A program made the translations under genes and the position numbers. From a virus, in IMG/VR virus record IMGVR_UViG_3300022937_000133, positions 1 through 25,370 of that record: DNA of 25,370 bases. One strand, written 5' to 3'. The notes beneath the pieces were generated by a model that was not told where the DNA came from, did not search any database, and saw nothing but the letters and a program-made list of their open reading frames with translations. Positions 6,002-21,884 of the stretch are shown in pieces. The stretch's first letter is position 1; each line of letters begins with the position of its first letter.

Positions 6002-6579
6002 ATAAATCAGATACAAACTTGAGTGAGTTTATTCAAGTTGAGAGATCTATTATTCCTTCATTTGTGTGTGATTATCTTGTGAGTGAAACTGAAAAGCGTG
6101 AATGGCGCACTCACAAGTGGTATAGTTATGGGAAAGATGAATACAGTACAGATGAAGATAAGAACCACTATATTCAAAATGCCTCTCCTGATTTGCAGGG
6201 AATGCTAACCCCTATCATATCTCAGGTGTTGAATAATTATAGTTTAAAGAATAAGTTTTCGTGTAAAAAGATAGACTCTATTACCAGTAAGTTTTCTAAC
6301 ATCGTCTTCAATAGGTATTCTCCTGGACAGATGTTGGATCAACATCAGGACCACATTAATGCTCTGTTTGATGGTAGAGAGAAAGGTATTCCCATATTGA
6401 GTTTGATATTAAATCTCAATGATGACTATGATGGTGGAGAACTATTCTTCTGGGATGATTATGTTGTCCCCCTTAGAAAGGGAGATATTGTAGTATTTCC
6501 ATCACTATTTCTCTATCCTCATGGTATAATGGAAGTGAAGAGCGGAAAACGCTACAGTGCAGTTAGTTGGGCATGGTAA
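5998..6579 (+). CDS. 2-oxoglutarate/Fe(II)-dependent oxygenase (prolyl-hydroxylase-like)
   Basis: The 193-residue protein has the double-stranded beta-helix signature. The iron ligands are H116 and D118 in QHQDH, and H175 in YPHGIMEV. R185 in GKRYSAVSW binds 2-oxoglutarate. GGELFFWDD and LRKGDIVVFPS are typical strands of the P4Hc/PKHD family, which hydroxylates protein or small-molecule substrates. It is the first of five different 2OG-oxygenase-like genes here. The substrate cannot be deduced. ATG 5998 overlaps the preceding stop. Confidence 0.9.
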   Translation: MNKSDTNLSEFIQVERSIIPSFVCDYLVSETEKREWRTHKWYSYGKDEYSTDEDKNHYIQNASPDLQGMLTPIISQVLNNYSLKNKFSCKKIDSITSKFSNIVFNRYSPGQMLDQHQDHINALFDGREKGIPILSLILNLNDDYDGGELFFWDDYVVPLRKGDIVVFPSLFLYPHGIMEVKSGKRYSAVSWAW

Positions 6580-6580
6580 C

Positions 6581-6730
6581 ATGAGAACAGTTCTAAAGAT
6601 CGATGATGATGGTATTCTAACATTCCCTCCCGAGATGCTGGAAACCCTTGGATGGAAGGAGGGAGATGTGCTACAATGGATTGATAACAACGATGGTTCT
6701 TTCCAACTGAAGAAAGATGAAGGGGATTGA
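6581..6730 (+). CDS. AbrB/MazE-like swapped-hairpin DNA-binding protein
   Basis: The 49-residue protein (TVLKIDDDGILTFPPEMLE, then GWKEGDVLQWID) matches the SpoVT-AbrB fold: beta strand, polar loop, P-P/E-M-L helix, then a GD turn into a strand. Family members are transition regulators or antitoxins. The next gene, a small basic protein, is not a recognisable toxin, so a stand-alone regulator is more likely. It follows the oxygenase stop by one base. Confidence 0.72.
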   Translation: MRTVLKIDDDGILTFPPEMLETLGWKEGDVLQWIDNNDGSFQLKKDEGD

Positions 6731-11486: not shown

Positions 11487-12110
11487 GTGACCAGTATTAA
11501 ACCCAAGAAATTCCCACCTAAACTGCTTGAGGTTCTTGAGTTCTTGAATAAAGTCAAGATCAAAGTCAGTGAAAGTCATGAAGATGGGCGTGTGAATAGT
11601 ATTGATGACGAAAGTACTATCATTGACTTACTGATTGAGGAATATGGTAAAGAGAATATTATCAAACCACCTGCGCGTTGGTGGTGGGATGTCAAAATCT
11701 TTGAGTACTATTTCAACCTTAAGTCGTCTGCTTACGGAACTGCTGCTGATAACTTCTCTTCTAAGGCGGCAATTTTGTATGCTCTGACTGATTTACCTGA
11801 GGATAAGTTGAATGTATCTTCGTGGAAGAAGTTTCAAGATGCTCTGATAAACCATGGTGGTAAAGAGAACAATCGTGATTATTATATCTTCTCTTTGAAT
11901 AAGAAAAACAACGAGGTTCATCTCACTTCACTCAAGTCTCTTAGCAAACTCACTCCCAACGGAAATAATCTCCCCTTTCAAATTAAGTGGGCAGATAATA
12001 CCACACCAGTTGATCGTACCTATCGACAAGCATATGATTTTCTGGTAGGATGTTATAAAGAATCTGTACGACGTAAAATCAACTCGCATGAAGGTTTTGA
12101 GCAACTCTGA
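11487..12110 (+). CDS. Putative type II restriction endonuclease
   Basis: The 207-residue protein contains RWWWDVKIFEYYFNLKSSAY (about residues 64-83), in which D68 and the NLK at 77-79 look like the metal site of a PD-(D/E)XK fold with an unusual third position. DNFSSKAAILYAL follows, a segment I associate with type II restriction enzymes. The gene overlaps a DNA methyltransferase gene by 23 bases, the classic arrangement of a restriction-modification unit. GTG 11487 is preferred to TTG 11475, which would leave almost no leader. The nuclease call rests on this motif plus context. Confidence 0.65.
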   Translation: MTSIKPKKFPPKLLEVLEFLNKVKIKVSESHEDGRVNSIDDESTIIDLLIEEYGKENIIKPPARWWWDVKIFEYYFNLKSSAYGTAADNFSSKAAILYALTDLPEDKLNVSSWKKFQDALINHGGKENNRDYYIFSLNKKNNEVHLTSLKSLSKLTPNGNNLPFQIKWADNTTPVDRTYRQAYDFLVGCYKESVRRKINSHEGFEQL

Positions 12111-12894
12111 TTTACAACTAGGTAACTGTCTGGAACTCATGAAAGAGATTCCAGACAAATCTGTTGATTTTATTTGTTGCGATCCCCCATACGGTACTAC
12201 CAGCATCAAATGGGATGAAGTTTTGGATTTTAATGCCATGTGGGAACAATATGGCAGAATTATTAAACCGAAGGGTATGATCTGTCTGTTTGGTTCTCAA
12301 CCATTCTCCGCACAGTTGATATGCTCCAATATCAAGTGGTTCAAATATGAATTGGTTTGGAATAAGAATAAATGTGGATCTCCTGGTCTTGCTAAGTATA
12401 GACCAATGAAAACACATGAAAATATTCTCTTGTTTGCTAAAGAACCTGGTGGCACATATAATCCACAAATGGAGAAGGGAGATCCATTTAAGAGAAAGAG
12501 TAAGAACCCAGAAGGATATGTGAGTAAAAGAAATCCTCATGGTTATGGATTGAAACCAGTAAAAGAATTTGAGAACAAAGGAACACGATATCCAAAATCT
12601 ATTGTTAATATATCCAGAGATTTTAGTGCTCAACAACAAGTTCATCCTACACAAAAACCAGTACCATTGATGGAATGGTTGATTAAAACTTACTCTAATG
12701 AAGGTGAAACTGTCCTCGATAATTGTATGGGATCTGGTTCTACTGGTGTTGCAGCACTAAACTTAAACCGAAAGTTTATTGGTATGGAGAGCGATCAAGA
12801 CTATTTTGAGATTGCTAAACAGAGAATAGAGAATGTGACAGTTGAGCAAGTGACACAGGGAGATTCGAATCCCCTGGTGGATGCCTTATACTAA
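12088..12894 (+). CDS. DNA methyltransferase, beta-class, DPPY type
   Basis: The 268-residue protein has catalytic motif IV CDPPYGTTSIKWDE first (DPPY at residues 32-35). A target-recognition region of about 150 residues follows, then AdoMet-binding DNCMGSGSTG at 211-220. The order IV-TRD-I defines the beta class of N6-adenine (or N4-cytosine) methyltransferases. VHPTQKP before motif I is a hallmark of this family. All expected motifs are intact. Together with the upstream gene it probably forms a type II restriction-modification system, or it protects phage DNA alone. The target sequence cannot be read from the protein. Confidence 0.94.
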   Translation: MKVLSNSDLQLGNCLELMKEIPDKSVDFICCDPPYGTTSIKWDEVLDFNAMWEQYGRIIKPKGMICLFGSQPFSAQLICSNIKWFKYELVWNKNKCGSPGLAKYRPMKTHENILLFAKEPGGTYNPQMEKGDPFKRKSKNPEGYVSKRNPHGYGLKPVKEFENKGTRYPKSIVNISRDFSAQQQVHPTQKPVPLMEWLIKTYSNEGETVLDNCMGSGSTGVAALNLNRKFIGMESDQDYFEIAKQRIENVTVEQVTQGDSNPLVDALY

Positions 12895-13852: not shown

Positions 13853-14389
13853 ATGACTTTCATCATTGACATTCAACCTACGGACATGGTTGAAAATATT
13901 GACCAAGATGCATTGCGGATGTTTTTAGATGAAAATGATTACAAATACTTTACCAATAATAGAATACATGTAATTAGATTTTTACCTAGTGGTGACGAAA
14001 ATCAAGAAGTTAGATATTATTGGACTGGAGAGGAATATACTAGGAGACTTGTAGATGATGATGTAACCTTTACTTGGATTCAAGAAAAAGGGTGTTACAG
14101 AAAAGATCATAAAGAATACTACGTCTATATCAGTGTTGGTGAAGATGGAAGACTTTATGTTGGAAGTTACACCCATTACTCCTATCAATCTAATTCATTT
14201 GATAATGATGGATATTATGGATCATTCACAGACAGAACATTCAAACCAGTTAAAAAAATCAAAGTATGTGAGTGTTCTTCTAGGAATGAAGCATACGAAA
14301 AAGAACGTCAACTTCAAATTCTTCTAGGTGTGGACTCTAATCCAGATTTTGCAAATAAGCGTATAGAATCTATGATTGTGTCCAGTTGA
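13853..14389 (+). CDS. GIY-YIG-like nuclease domain protein
   Basis: The 178-residue protein has a C-terminal GIY-YIG-like module. YYVYISVGEDGRLYVGSYT spans about residues 89-107, with VYI and YVG in place of GIY and YIG. YYGSFTDRTF supplies an arginine, and SSRNEAYEKERQLQ supplies the helix glutamate. Such nucleases act in homing, restriction or repair. The N-terminal 85 residues are an unassigned domain and could bind DNA. The gene is more AT-rich than its neighbours, which suggests recent acquisition. Catalytic competence is uncertain because the first tyrosine motif is divergent. Confidence 0.68.
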   Translation: MTFIIDIQPTDMVENIDQDALRMFLDENDYKYFTNNRIHVIRFLPSGDENQEVRYYWTGEEYTRRLVDDDVTFTWIQEKGCYRKDHKEYYVYISVGEDGRLYVGSYTHYSYQSNSFDNDGYYGSFTDRTFKPVKKIKVCECSSRNEAYEKERQLQILLGVDSNPDFANKRIESMIVSS

Positions 14390-19549: not shown

Positions 19550-20033
19550 TCAGTTCCTACCACAGGACTATTTTGATAATCTGACACTAATGGTAGAAGA
19601 TCTTCCTTGGTTCTATCATGACTGGAGTGTGTATAAAGGAGATAATCATCCACAGTTCTATCATCTCTTTTATTTTAATAATGAGGTAAGATCTAATCAG
19701 TTCTTTAAGTATGTGGAAGATGTTTATACTCGTTATGTACCAGATGCAAGTAAGCATACTCTTTATAGGATGAAGATGAATGCTACACCAAGAGAAGATG
19801 TATTGAAAGAGAAGACTTATCATGTAGATGTAGAGGATAAGAAACACAATGTTTGCATACTCTATATGAATACTAATGATGGATATACTGTCTTTGAACA
19901 TAACCAACAGAGAGTACAGTCTATTGCGAATAGAGCAGTGATCTTCCCTGGTGAATATAGGCATACAGGAACCAATTGTACTGATGAAGGAGTCAGGATT
20001 GTATTGAATATTGATTATCTAATAAATGAATGA
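19536..20033 (+). CDS. 2OG-Fe(II) oxygenase-like protein
   Basis: The 165-residue protein has YHVDVEDKKHNVCILYMN (H96, D98), FPGEYRHTGTNC (H143) and VRIVLNIDYL (R154), a complete 2OG oxygenase site. The N-terminus (IIVDQFLPQDYFDNLTLMV) is typical of the short phage members. ATG 19536 is preferred to GTG 19530. It is the last gene before the repeat-rich gap, so transcription probably stops beyond it, although no clear terminator is visible. Confidence 0.84.
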   Translation: MIIVDQFLPQDYFDNLTLMVEDLPWFYHDWSVYKGDNHPQFYHLFYFNNEVRSNQFFKYVEDVYTRYVPDASKHTLYRMKMNATPREDVLKEKTYHVDVEDKKHNVCILYMNTNDGYTVFEHNQQRVQSIANRAVIFPGEYRHTGTNCTDEGVRIVLNIDYLINE

Positions 20034-20113
20034 AAATTGTATTGATTTATACCAAATATAGTTAAATTAATTAAAAAAATACCTTTTTAAATATAAAGTC
20101 GTTGTTTATACCG

Positions 20114-20165
20114 TTCTCAATAAGTGTTCATTAATTGAGAATCAATAAGGTTTTATTGTTGAGAA
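20114..20165. repeat. Two adjacent inverted repeats, TTCTCAAT and CAATAA types
   Basis: TTCTCAAT (20114-20121) pairs with ATTGAGAA (20134-20141). CAATAA (20143-20148) pairs with TTATTG (20153-20158) around GGTT. A further TTGAGAA follows at 20159. The same word recurs as an 11-base perfect inverted repeat at 20905. Confidence 0.75.
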
Positions 20166-20170
20166 TAACC

Positions 20171-20350
20171 CTTATGAACCCCTTCTAATATCTTATAAAT
20201 GCCTCTGAAACCCCCTGTCCTTATGCTCTCTAAAACCTTATAAACCCCTCCTGGTCTTGTGAGTTTAGCGAGCGTACCATAAGACGCGCAGTTTGTCAAG
20301 TCTGCCGCCCGCGAAATTTCCCAGAACCCACACAATTCTTATAAGACCCC
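20171..20350. repeat. Degenerate CTTAT(A/G)AACCCC repeats
   Basis: Related words start at 20171, 20192, 20220, 20237 and 20338, most of the form CTTATAAAnnCC followed by a pyrimidine-rich tail. The last contains the perfect palindrome TCTTATAAGA. The minus strand reads GGxYKxLE repeatedly, but that ORF has no other gene-like features. Confidence 0.55.
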
Positions 20351-20412
20351 TACGAGAATTATGTTACGAGAAACACACATTTCTCTACGAGAAGACATAT
20401 ATACTACTATGA

Positions 20413-20608
20413 TCTCGACGAGAATAGGCGGGCATTATGGGCTTGCAATCTCGACGAGAAACACGTATAATATCTAAGCATCATACAAAATCTCGACGAG
20501 CTTATGTACGACGATTACGATCTCGAATACTCTTTTAGCAACGATTATAATCTCGACGAGGATACGTACTACGAGTATCATGCACAACGTGACGTAGATC
20601 TCGACGAG
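20413..20608. repeat. Array of TCTCGACGAG palindromes
   Basis: Copies start at 20413, 20449, 20491, 20551 and 20599, with a partial one at 20521 (TCTCGAATAC). The first two extend to the perfect palindrome TCTCGACGAGA. Intervals are 36, 42, 30, 30 and 48 bases, all multiples of six. Copies lie upstream of, beside and inside the gene at 20504, where they read Leu-Asp-Glu. They look like protein-binding sites (operators or iterons). Confidence 0.75.
20466..20471 (+). promoter_or_regulatory. -10 box within the palindrome array
   Basis: TATAAT at 20466-20471 lies seven bases after the second palindrome and 33 bases before ATG 20504, with a third palindrome between it and the start. A factor bound to the palindromes would block or modulate this promoter. 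Confidence 0.55.
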
Positions 20609-20665
20609 GAATACGCACATAATACGCAAGACTATGACACACTTGCGTATCGTCACTATGCATGA
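20504..20665 (+). CDS. Small acidic tyrosine-rich protein encoded through the palindromes
   Basis: The 53-residue ORF (MYDDYDLEYSFSNDYNLDED at the start) is very rich in aspartate, glutamate and tyrosine. Two palindrome copies encode its NLDE and DLDE segments in frame. The acidic, aromatic composition could fit a DNA-mimic protein, but that is speculative. It could also be a chance reading of the repeat array. Support comes from the promoter just upstream and the uninterrupted frame. Confidence 0.5.
   Translation: MYDDYDLEYSFSNDYNLDEDTYYEYHAQRDVDLDEEYAHNTQDYDTLAYRHYA
20622..20650. repeat. Perfect nine-base inverted repeat
   Basis: ATACGCAAG (20622-20630) pairs with CTTGCGTAT (20642-20650) around an 11-base loop, inside the end of the acidic mini-gene. 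A smaller GCGTA/TACGC pair lies at 20716-20728 in the next gene. Confidence 0.6.
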
Positions 20666-20695
20666 TACAATGTAGCACACACGCACGAGAATCAC

Positions 20696-20854
20696 ATGCC
20701 TGCGACACACACAAAGCGTATGGTACGCGTCACACTAGATCTCATGTGTTATGATGATCTAGAACTAGAAGATCTCAACTGGCGAGATATCCTAGGACTA
20801 GAATGTGACGAAGATGTCCATGCTACCGTCAAGGAATTCGATATCGATTGGTGA
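20696..20854 (+). CDS. Small acidic hypothetical protein
   Basis: The 52-residue ORF (PATHTKRMVRVTLDLMCYDD at the start) has a basic first third and an acidic leucine-rich rest (LELEDLNWRDILGLECDED). TACAAT at 20667-20672 may be its -10. No strong ribosome site is visible. It is too short to assign, but the balanced composition is protein-like. Confidence 0.5.
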   Translation: MPATHTKRMVRVTLDLMCYDDLELEDLNWRDILGLECDEDVHATVKEFDIDW

Positions 20855-20855
20855 C

Positions 20856-20879
20856 TGTGCCGCCTTGTGGATTGGCACA
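20856..20879. repeat. Inverted repeat TGTGCC/GGCACA
   Basis: TGTGCC (20856-20861) pairs with GGCACA (20874-20879), starting two bases after a stop codon, with TTATATAAA following. It may act as a terminator-like hairpin; the GTGCCA word recurs at 20947. Confidence 0.5.
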
Positions 20880-20904
20880 TTATATAAATCAGTACTAATA
20901 TTCC

Positions 20905-20933
20905 ATTCTCAATAATACTTTCTTATTGAGAAT
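20905..20933. repeat. Perfect 11-base inverted repeat, TTCTCAATAA type
   Basis: ATTCTCAATAA (20905-20915) pairs with TTATTGAGAAT (20923-20933) around a seven-base loop. The same word forms the hairpins at 20114-20165, so the pair brackets the palindrome island. Confidence 0.8.
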
Positions 20934-20946
20934 CGGAGCCGCCGCC

Positions 20947-20972
20947 TTGTGCCAATTGACGTGCTGGCACAA
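20947..20972. repeat. Perfect eight-base inverted repeat TTGTGCCA/TGGCACAA
   Basis: TTGTGCCA (20947-20954) pairs with TGGCACAA (20965-20972) around ten bases, between the island and the next gene. It could be a terminator stem or a protein-binding site; no T-run follows. Confidence 0.65.
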
Positions 20973-21012
20973 AGGTGATTGATTGTGTGGCAGAATGCCC
21001 TATTGTTCTCTC

Positions 21013-21201
21013 ATGGCAATCCACAACTCCGAAATGTTTAACTCTGCCCTGGAATCTCTCCACCAGTTCTGTATCGAAATGGATGCTGATTGGTGCATGG
21101 TTTATGATTACATGGAAGCACAAGTTGGCACGCTCACTGAAGAGCAATGGGATCAAGTTGAGATGGTTTATTACAACTACAACATGGATACTCGTTACTG
21201 A
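21013..21201 (+). CDS. Small acidic hypothetical protein
   Basis: The 62-residue product (MAIHNSEMFNSALESLHQF, then GTLTEEQWDQVEMVYYNYN) is helical. ATG 21013 is the most protein-like start, with ATG 20995 as an in-frame alternative; neither has a clear ribosome site. A hairpin follows the stop. Function is unknown. Confidence 0.65.
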   Translation: MAIHNSEMFNSALESLHQFCIEMDADWCMVYDYMEAQVGTLTEEQWDQVEMVYYNYNMDTRY

Positions 21202-21215
21202 GTATAACTAACTGC

Positions 21216-21238
21216 CCGCGAGTTCTTTATACTCGCGG
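21216..21238 (+). terminator. Hairpin with TTCTTTATA loop
   Basis: CCGCGAG (21216-21222) pairs perfectly with CTCGCGG (21232-21238) around TTCTTTATA. The same loop recurs in the hairpin at 22340. No T-run follows, so it is atypical as a terminator, but it sits just after a stop codon. Confidence 0.55.
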
Positions 21239-21367
21239 CGGCTGAACCCCTGTGCCAGTTGAGAAGGTGGACCAAACCCCCTTGCGGATCGCCCGAAAAT
21301 ATTTTATGTTGGTTTCGTGGTTGAGAAACGCATTCTCCCACATCCAAATTCCTTTCACTCAACAACA

Positions 21368-21749: not shown

Positions 21750-21884
21750 ATGTTTGATGAACTCTGGACCGAGATTGCTGATGCTCCTGGTGAGATCTTT
21801 GACGTGATTGAGTATAAAGAAGAATGGGAGAAAGAAGAGAAGTTCAATGTAGAGAATTACATCAACTCTAACTACGATTACTGA
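21750..21884 (+). CDS. Small acidic hypothetical protein
   Basis: The 44-residue ORF (MFDELWTEIADAPGEIFDV at the start, then KEEWEKEEKFNVENY) is acidic and helical. Its stop overlaps the next ATG. Function is unknown. Confidence 0.7.
   Translation: MFDELWTEIADAPGEIFDVIEYKEEWEKEEKFNVENYINSNYDY

Follow-up and report, generated by a model that had tools for sequence, protein, structure and literature searches.

A conserved palindrome array across a promoter and a small gene of T4-like cyanophages, probably an operator array

A cluster of short palindromes was found to run across a promoter and into a small gene in a 25-kb IMG/VR fragment (the window; 25,370 nucleotides in full), and this array is real and not a product of chance. 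Five exact copies of the word TCTCGACGAG begin at 20413, 20449, 20491, 20551 and 20599, all within 200 bp; with a partial copy and an additional degenerate one they span 230 bp, and there are none elsewhere in the 25 kb. When one mismatch was allowed, TCTCGACGAG had eight strand-wise matches in the window, all at 20382–20608, as compared to a mean of 1.06 and a maximum of five matches in 100 dinucleotide-preserving shuffles of the whole window. The array therefore survived the possibility, raised in the first-pass annotation, that the word might be equally dense elsewhere. We consider that these palindromes probably form an operator array, that is, the predicted sites of a dimeric protein that would repress an early promoter, and the array appears to be a phage switch for gene control that has not been described. 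The first-pass annotation had likewise proposed operators that double as coding sequence, and promoter geometry, conservation in alignments and codon choice, as described below, all agree with that proposal.

The unit is an odd palindrome of 11–13 bp, (A)TCTCG-W-CGAGA(T), with TCTCGACGAG as its core. Over 525 distinct contexts, A was favoured before the site and A, then A/T, after it, and position 8 of the site tolerates T. In the window, a degenerate site with one mismatch, TCTCTACGAGA, lies furthest upstream (20382–20392; column conservation of 0.87 in 15 divergent relatives), and is followed by TCTCGACGAGA upstream of the promoter (20413–20423; column conservation 0.96). A further TCTCGACGAGA at 20449–20459, identified by motif match and promoter geometry, sits within the 17-bp spacer between the -35 and -10 hexamers, and TCTCGACGAGC (20491–20501; column conservation 0.96) is found 42 bp downstream of it, just ahead of the start codon of a small gene, which we call gene A. 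Inside gene A are a partial site, TCTCGAATAC (TCTCGAATACT; 20521–20531), which in many relatives reads TCTCGACTAC/T and encodes Leu-Asp-Tyr, and two exact motif matches, both TCTCGACGAGG and both encoding Leu-Asp-Glu, at 20551–20561 and 20599–20609. The gaps between copies, with the partial copy counted, are 36, 42, 30, 30 and 48 bases. The positions and spacings that the first-pass annotation had given for five near-identical palindromes and one partial copy were thus reproduced, as was the Leu-Asp-Glu reading at sites in the translation of the 20504 open reading frame; the six copies stood, and the one-mismatch copy at 20382 had been missed.

The position of the array relative to the promoter supports reading it as a set of operators. 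The promoter, TTGCAA-17-TATAAT, is a strong, near-consensus sigma-70 promoter on the + strand ahead of gene A, the first gene that it would drive, with its -35 hexamer at 20443–20448 (10/12 with the 17-bp spacer, position kept in relatives) and its -10 hexamer at 20466–20471 (by promoter scoring, conserved in relatives). The copies flank the TATAAT box, as had been noted before, and one of these repeated dyad-symmetric sites fills the start of the spacer. Relatives repeat this geometry, that is, a -35 hexamer, a site in a 17-bp spacer, TATAAT and a next site about 42 bp on, and several have the full TTGACA; as their promoters were selected on a TATAAT with a site on each side, only the -35 hexamer, the spacer length and the more distant sites are independent observations. 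In 34 nonredundant arrays, site centres lie near -110, -78, -46, -14 and +28 relative to the first base of the -10 hexamer, with spacing modes of 31–32 bp upstream and 41–43 bp across the promoter. These distances approximate three and four helical turns, with a periodicity test that does not separate 10.5 bp from nearby periods. Outside the gene, spacing in the relatives is 31–35 and 41–43 bp, whereas in-gene spacings are multiples of a codon (30, 36, 60, etc.). The earlier remark that all spacings are multiples of six thus mixes a codon rule with a coincidence of the window copy, because relatives deviate from it upstream of the gene.

A second, leftward promoter-like element, TTGACA-17-TACGCT, is present on the - strand at 20271–20299. 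Its pattern (TTGAC[AT]-16/18-TAnnnT) occurred 90–260 bp upstream in 28/32 arrays in comparison to 3.8% of control windows, so that part of the array sits between two divergent promoters. Downstream of this leftward element, on the minus strand at 20153–20276, the window has purine-rich diverged repeats around GGTTTATAAGG, which in phage S-SKS1 are tandem copies (locus L010, 1966–2060) and which may be an untranslated repeat RNA. An Rfam search of 19900–21300 returned no known RNA element. Inverted words, ATTCTCAATAA / TTATTGAGAAT, were also observed on either side of the array (20113–20166 and 20905–20933), in S-SRM01 and DSL-LC03, and near satellite clusters of the palindrome (L070, L092).

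Conservation of the array was assessed with relatives that were collected without use of the motif. The gene that follows gene A (gene B, 20696–20854, + strand) encodes a 52-aa protein assigned to PHROG 12516 by PHROG match, and a search with gene B alone gave 42 IMG/VR loci. The array was found 100–400 bp upstream of gene B in 40/42 loci, the other two having gene B ≤4 bases from a contig edge; that is, it is present in 40/40 relatives with enough upstream sequence, and the loss of the array beside retained flanking genes, which the first-pass annotation had named as a check, was not seen among them. When 15 divergent members of the gene B set were aligned unconditionally, with noncoding columns taken from 20331 on, the four noncoding site positions had a mean column identity of 0.92 versus 0.63 for the other noncoding columns (p = 4e-13), and the promoter hexamers had 0.94. 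At the DNA level, the sites are thus more conserved than their surroundings. When IMG/VR was scanned with the motif, at least 110 contigs among the 120 matches listed had at least three sites in 400 bp, and 86 of the 110 clustered contigs, among the matches listed, carry a gene A ending in LAYxHYA. The remaining matches listed include GC-rich sequences with two sites only, which resemble chance matches, as well as divergent phages whose arrays have 8–11 sites and in several cases lie over altered versions of gene A.

The relatives of the window are T4-like cyanophages (Kyanoviridae) and S-SKS1, which is filed as Llyrvirus, and the array is carried by T4-like viruses of both marine and freshwater cyanobacteria. 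Among isolates, the locus is carried by S-SRM01, S-SKS1 and S-T4, with the array present in S-SRM01 and S-T4 and degenerate in S-SKS1; it is absent from DSL-LC03, S-RIM50, S-RIM8, S-RSM4, SynMITS9220M01, S-H35, S-SCSM2R and S-CREM1, and S-B43 has one single site and no array. S-SKS1 keeps only two sites, and its array is largely replaced by TACGAGATACA words in and around gene A (L010, 2234–2560), which is a point against the operator reading; a switch of binding specificity is possible. In the record of S-T4 (MH412654.1), about 9.5 kb including the array is duplicated at the two ends (offset 171569), probably through assembly overlap of a permuted genome.

Sites also occur away from the main array. 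In the 240-kb genome of S-SRM01, they form three clusters at 85.6–91.0 kb, with one stray; the further clusters are 2.5 and 5.4 kb downstream of the main array, at 88119–88284 and 90907–91006. Satellite clusters of the same palindrome were also found a few kb from the main array in L118, L081, L143 and L336. In some phages such secondary clusters lie at distances of 2–8 kb, all within about 10 kb, and consist of three sites 38–40 bp apart or of intergenic groups; the intergenic stretches that contain them are short and either follow stop codons or precede small genes. Most have no obvious consensus promoter, which is a point against a model in which the sites are purely promoter operators.

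Gene A (20504–20665, + strand) encodes a 53-aa acidic, Tyr-rich protein ending in LAYRHYA, has no match in Pfam or PHROG, and has a homolog in each of the 34 nonredundant arrays. It looks to be translated, based on conservation of both its start and its C-terminal LAYRHYA. As all exact copies in the window share the reading frame of gene A, including the three before its start codon, we considered whether the array is only a coding repeat, an Asp-Leu-Asp-Glu peptide repeat of gene A with the upstream copies as remnants of a longer gene. Several lines of evidence refute this, and we regard it as having almost no likelihood. In relatives, the distances between upstream sites are not divisible by three, and where position 8 is T the noncoding copies, as in S-T4, read TAG in that frame whereas in-gene copies have TAC or TAT, so that a stop codon is avoided. 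All 69/69 in-gene sites have the Leu-Asp-x (LDE) frame, and their codon choice is extreme relative to the rest of gene A: in LD[E/Y/D/A] words Leu is CTC in 76/89 cases (85%) versus 5/56 (9%) elsewhere in the gene, Asp is GAC in 76/90 versus 103/316, and Glu is GAG in 55/58 versus 29/75. The background use of these codons in S-SRM01 is 6% for CTC, 21% for GAC and 24% for GAG. In addition, one site in each of L103 and L085 encodes Leu-Val-Glu and yet retains the palindrome. Because of this skew in the words and the retention of the palindrome despite a residue change, the codon evidence indicates that the palindrome is selected as DNA inside a translated gene.

A replication origin, one of the options in the first-pass annotation, would make the array a set of iterons for an initiator, beside an AT-rich stretch (20040–20100) and a long noncoding gap. 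Iterons of replication origins are direct repeats, typically spaced at about 20–22 bp. The array resembles them in having several short sites close to noncoding AT-rich sequence; the noncoding gap, of about 470 bp, is rare and has the repeats on its right side, S-SKS1 has copies of the DnaA-box-like word TGTGGATAAG upstream, and all S-SRM01 sites but one fall within 6 kb. However, the cyanophage sites are palindromic, lie 31–42 bp apart around a promoter to whose geometry they are bound, and continue into a gene. Cumulative GC skew was monotonic in S-SRM01, S-SKS1, S-T4 and DSL-LC03, four complete related or comparison genomes, and had no switch at the locus at which sites could cluster. The window has no DnaA-box-like words, no recognised initiator gene was among the flanking proteins scanned, and T4-like phages without an array replicate regardless. 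With no skew switch and no origin hallmark found, we think an origin unlikely. DnaA-box-like words, TGTGGATAAG and TTTTCCACA, were noted in the noncoding gaps of S-SKS1 (L010, 1918–1960) and DSL-LC03 (L011, 2420–2880). A cluster of targets for recombination, packaging or a homing nuclease appears more improbable still. In its favour, genes of the homing-endonuclease type are found near some arrays (an HNH gene next to the third cluster of S-SRM01, and in L094 a GIY-YIG-like ORF that precedes the array), and in the S-T4 record the array falls within the duplicated ends, but those ends are probably an assembly artefact and the fixed promoter spacing and the phasing of about 31 bp would be left unexplained; good positive evidence for this option of the first-pass annotation was not found.

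That a cyanobacterial regulator might use the sites as its operator, with the phage either obeying or titrating it, is doubtful but gains some weight from the search for a phage-encoded binder and from the several sites per genome. A phyletic screen for a cognate DNA-binding protein gave only weak candidates, with no DNA-binding fold tracking the arrays; the genes that track the array best, gene A and a gene at 21750–21881, both encode small acidic proteins. The latter, of 44 aa and with no family match, is found among isolates only in array-carrying phages. On the other hand, S-RIM8, a phage of the same host strain (WH7803), is without the array, no cyanobacterial genome was among the 118 paired-site matches listed (these were mostly GC-rich coding chance matches in scattered species), and the fit to promoter geometry points to local control over titration alone.

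Individual phage proteins were also evaluated as binders. Gene B was rejected as a DNA-binding regulator, since its AlphaFold model is of low information (mean pLDDT 81, pTM 0.47, hardly any secondary structure) and had no match in the PDB, and since DSL-LC03, SynMITS9220M01 and S-SCSM2R have the gene but no array. An AbrB/MazE-like protein is encoded 3–8 kb downstream in many array phages, and was rejected because its family (phrog_661) is found both with and without arrays. Two distinct cyanophage subfamilies of AbrB/MazE-like proteins (PHROG 661) were observed, one at L013:9954-10121, which by synteny would fall just beyond the end of the window, and the other at 6557–6730 of the window. 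The array-associated subfamily is acidic and without basic residues, and would appear to lack those expected of the AbrB DNA-binding face; relatives of this closer subfamily occur in P-SSM2, ACG-2014f and Sf-CH8, where the surrounding 24 kb are without the clustered word. The window also has a DNA methyltransferase gene (12088–12894) and a weak GIY-YIG/homing-endonuclease-like gene (13853–14389) among small genes.

If the sites are operators, as we think probable, a dimeric protein made by the phage or the host may bind them cooperatively, all on a single face of the helix. When bound, the promoter-spacer site would block RNA polymerase, and its occupancy would be strengthened by the neighbouring sites about three and four helical turns away, so that the promoter would fire early in infection on host polymerase and be shut or held off once the protein is abundant. 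Elongation may be blocked at the sites inside gene A, which would then be roadblocks like stoperators, and through secondary clusters 2–8 kb away the same protein would act at further places. More tentatively, the array could belong to an undescribed, widespread system of T4-like cyanophages in which a phased array over two divergent promoters and a small gene is coated by a putative DNA-binding protein outside the recognised families. Gene A would then be a coding gene and, at the same time, serve as the operator field for its own promoter, and satellites would extend control over the early region; this fuller scheme is possible, and we would not call it likely.

Apart from host-type early and T4-type late promoters, little of the transcription control of T4-like cyanophages has been mapped. 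The array adds a cis element that is concrete and widely conserved and has a predicted function; it could serve as a natural probe for its regulator, and it clearly illustrates how predicted binding sites constrain the codons of a gene. Palindromic operators with helical spacing, of which one occludes the promoter and the others cooperate, are known from lambda OL/OR, lac O1-O2 and gal OE-OI, and at the lac and gal promoters one operator lies inside the first gene. The cyanophage array is similar in its palindromic sites, helical spacing and combination of a promoter site with upstream and in-gene sites, and differs in having five to eleven sites, in being embedded in a small gene and in bending codons to the word. 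As the first-pass annotation had surmised for cyanophages, text searches of the open-licence literature, including the description of S-SRM01 (PMC8557907) and a comparison of T4-like cyanophages (PMC3037559), found no account of the element; the word itself appeared there only in four papers that by title and abstract concern eukaryotes.

The excerpts available on pMarR of P-SSP7 (PMC9692554) describe a cyanophage-encoded transcription factor with several sites, including downstream of a start site. The array would be similar in controlling transcription of a cyanophage system from several sites, some past the start, whereas pMarR is made by a podovirus and acts at the rne promoter of the host, and those excerpts give no such motif. 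In our analysis, the array is best compared to multi-operator control in how it would work, and it also resembles the stoperators of mycobacteriophages. Mycobacteriophage L5 and other Cluster A phages have many copies of a repressor site, some in the early promoter and others off promoters, with a motif that drifts between related phages (PMC6550527, PMC9283540). The likeness is in the many copies of one site, both in an early promoter and away from promoters. Cluster A stoperators, in contrast, are asymmetric, oriented with transcription and genome-wide in temperate phages, whereas the asymmetry was not found in the cyanophage sites, which are palindromes in one to three clusters that overlap coding sequence in phages where no lysogeny gene was seen. 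As for the dispersal that characterizes stoperators, some of the secondary cyanophage clusters are intergenic, within about 10 kb.
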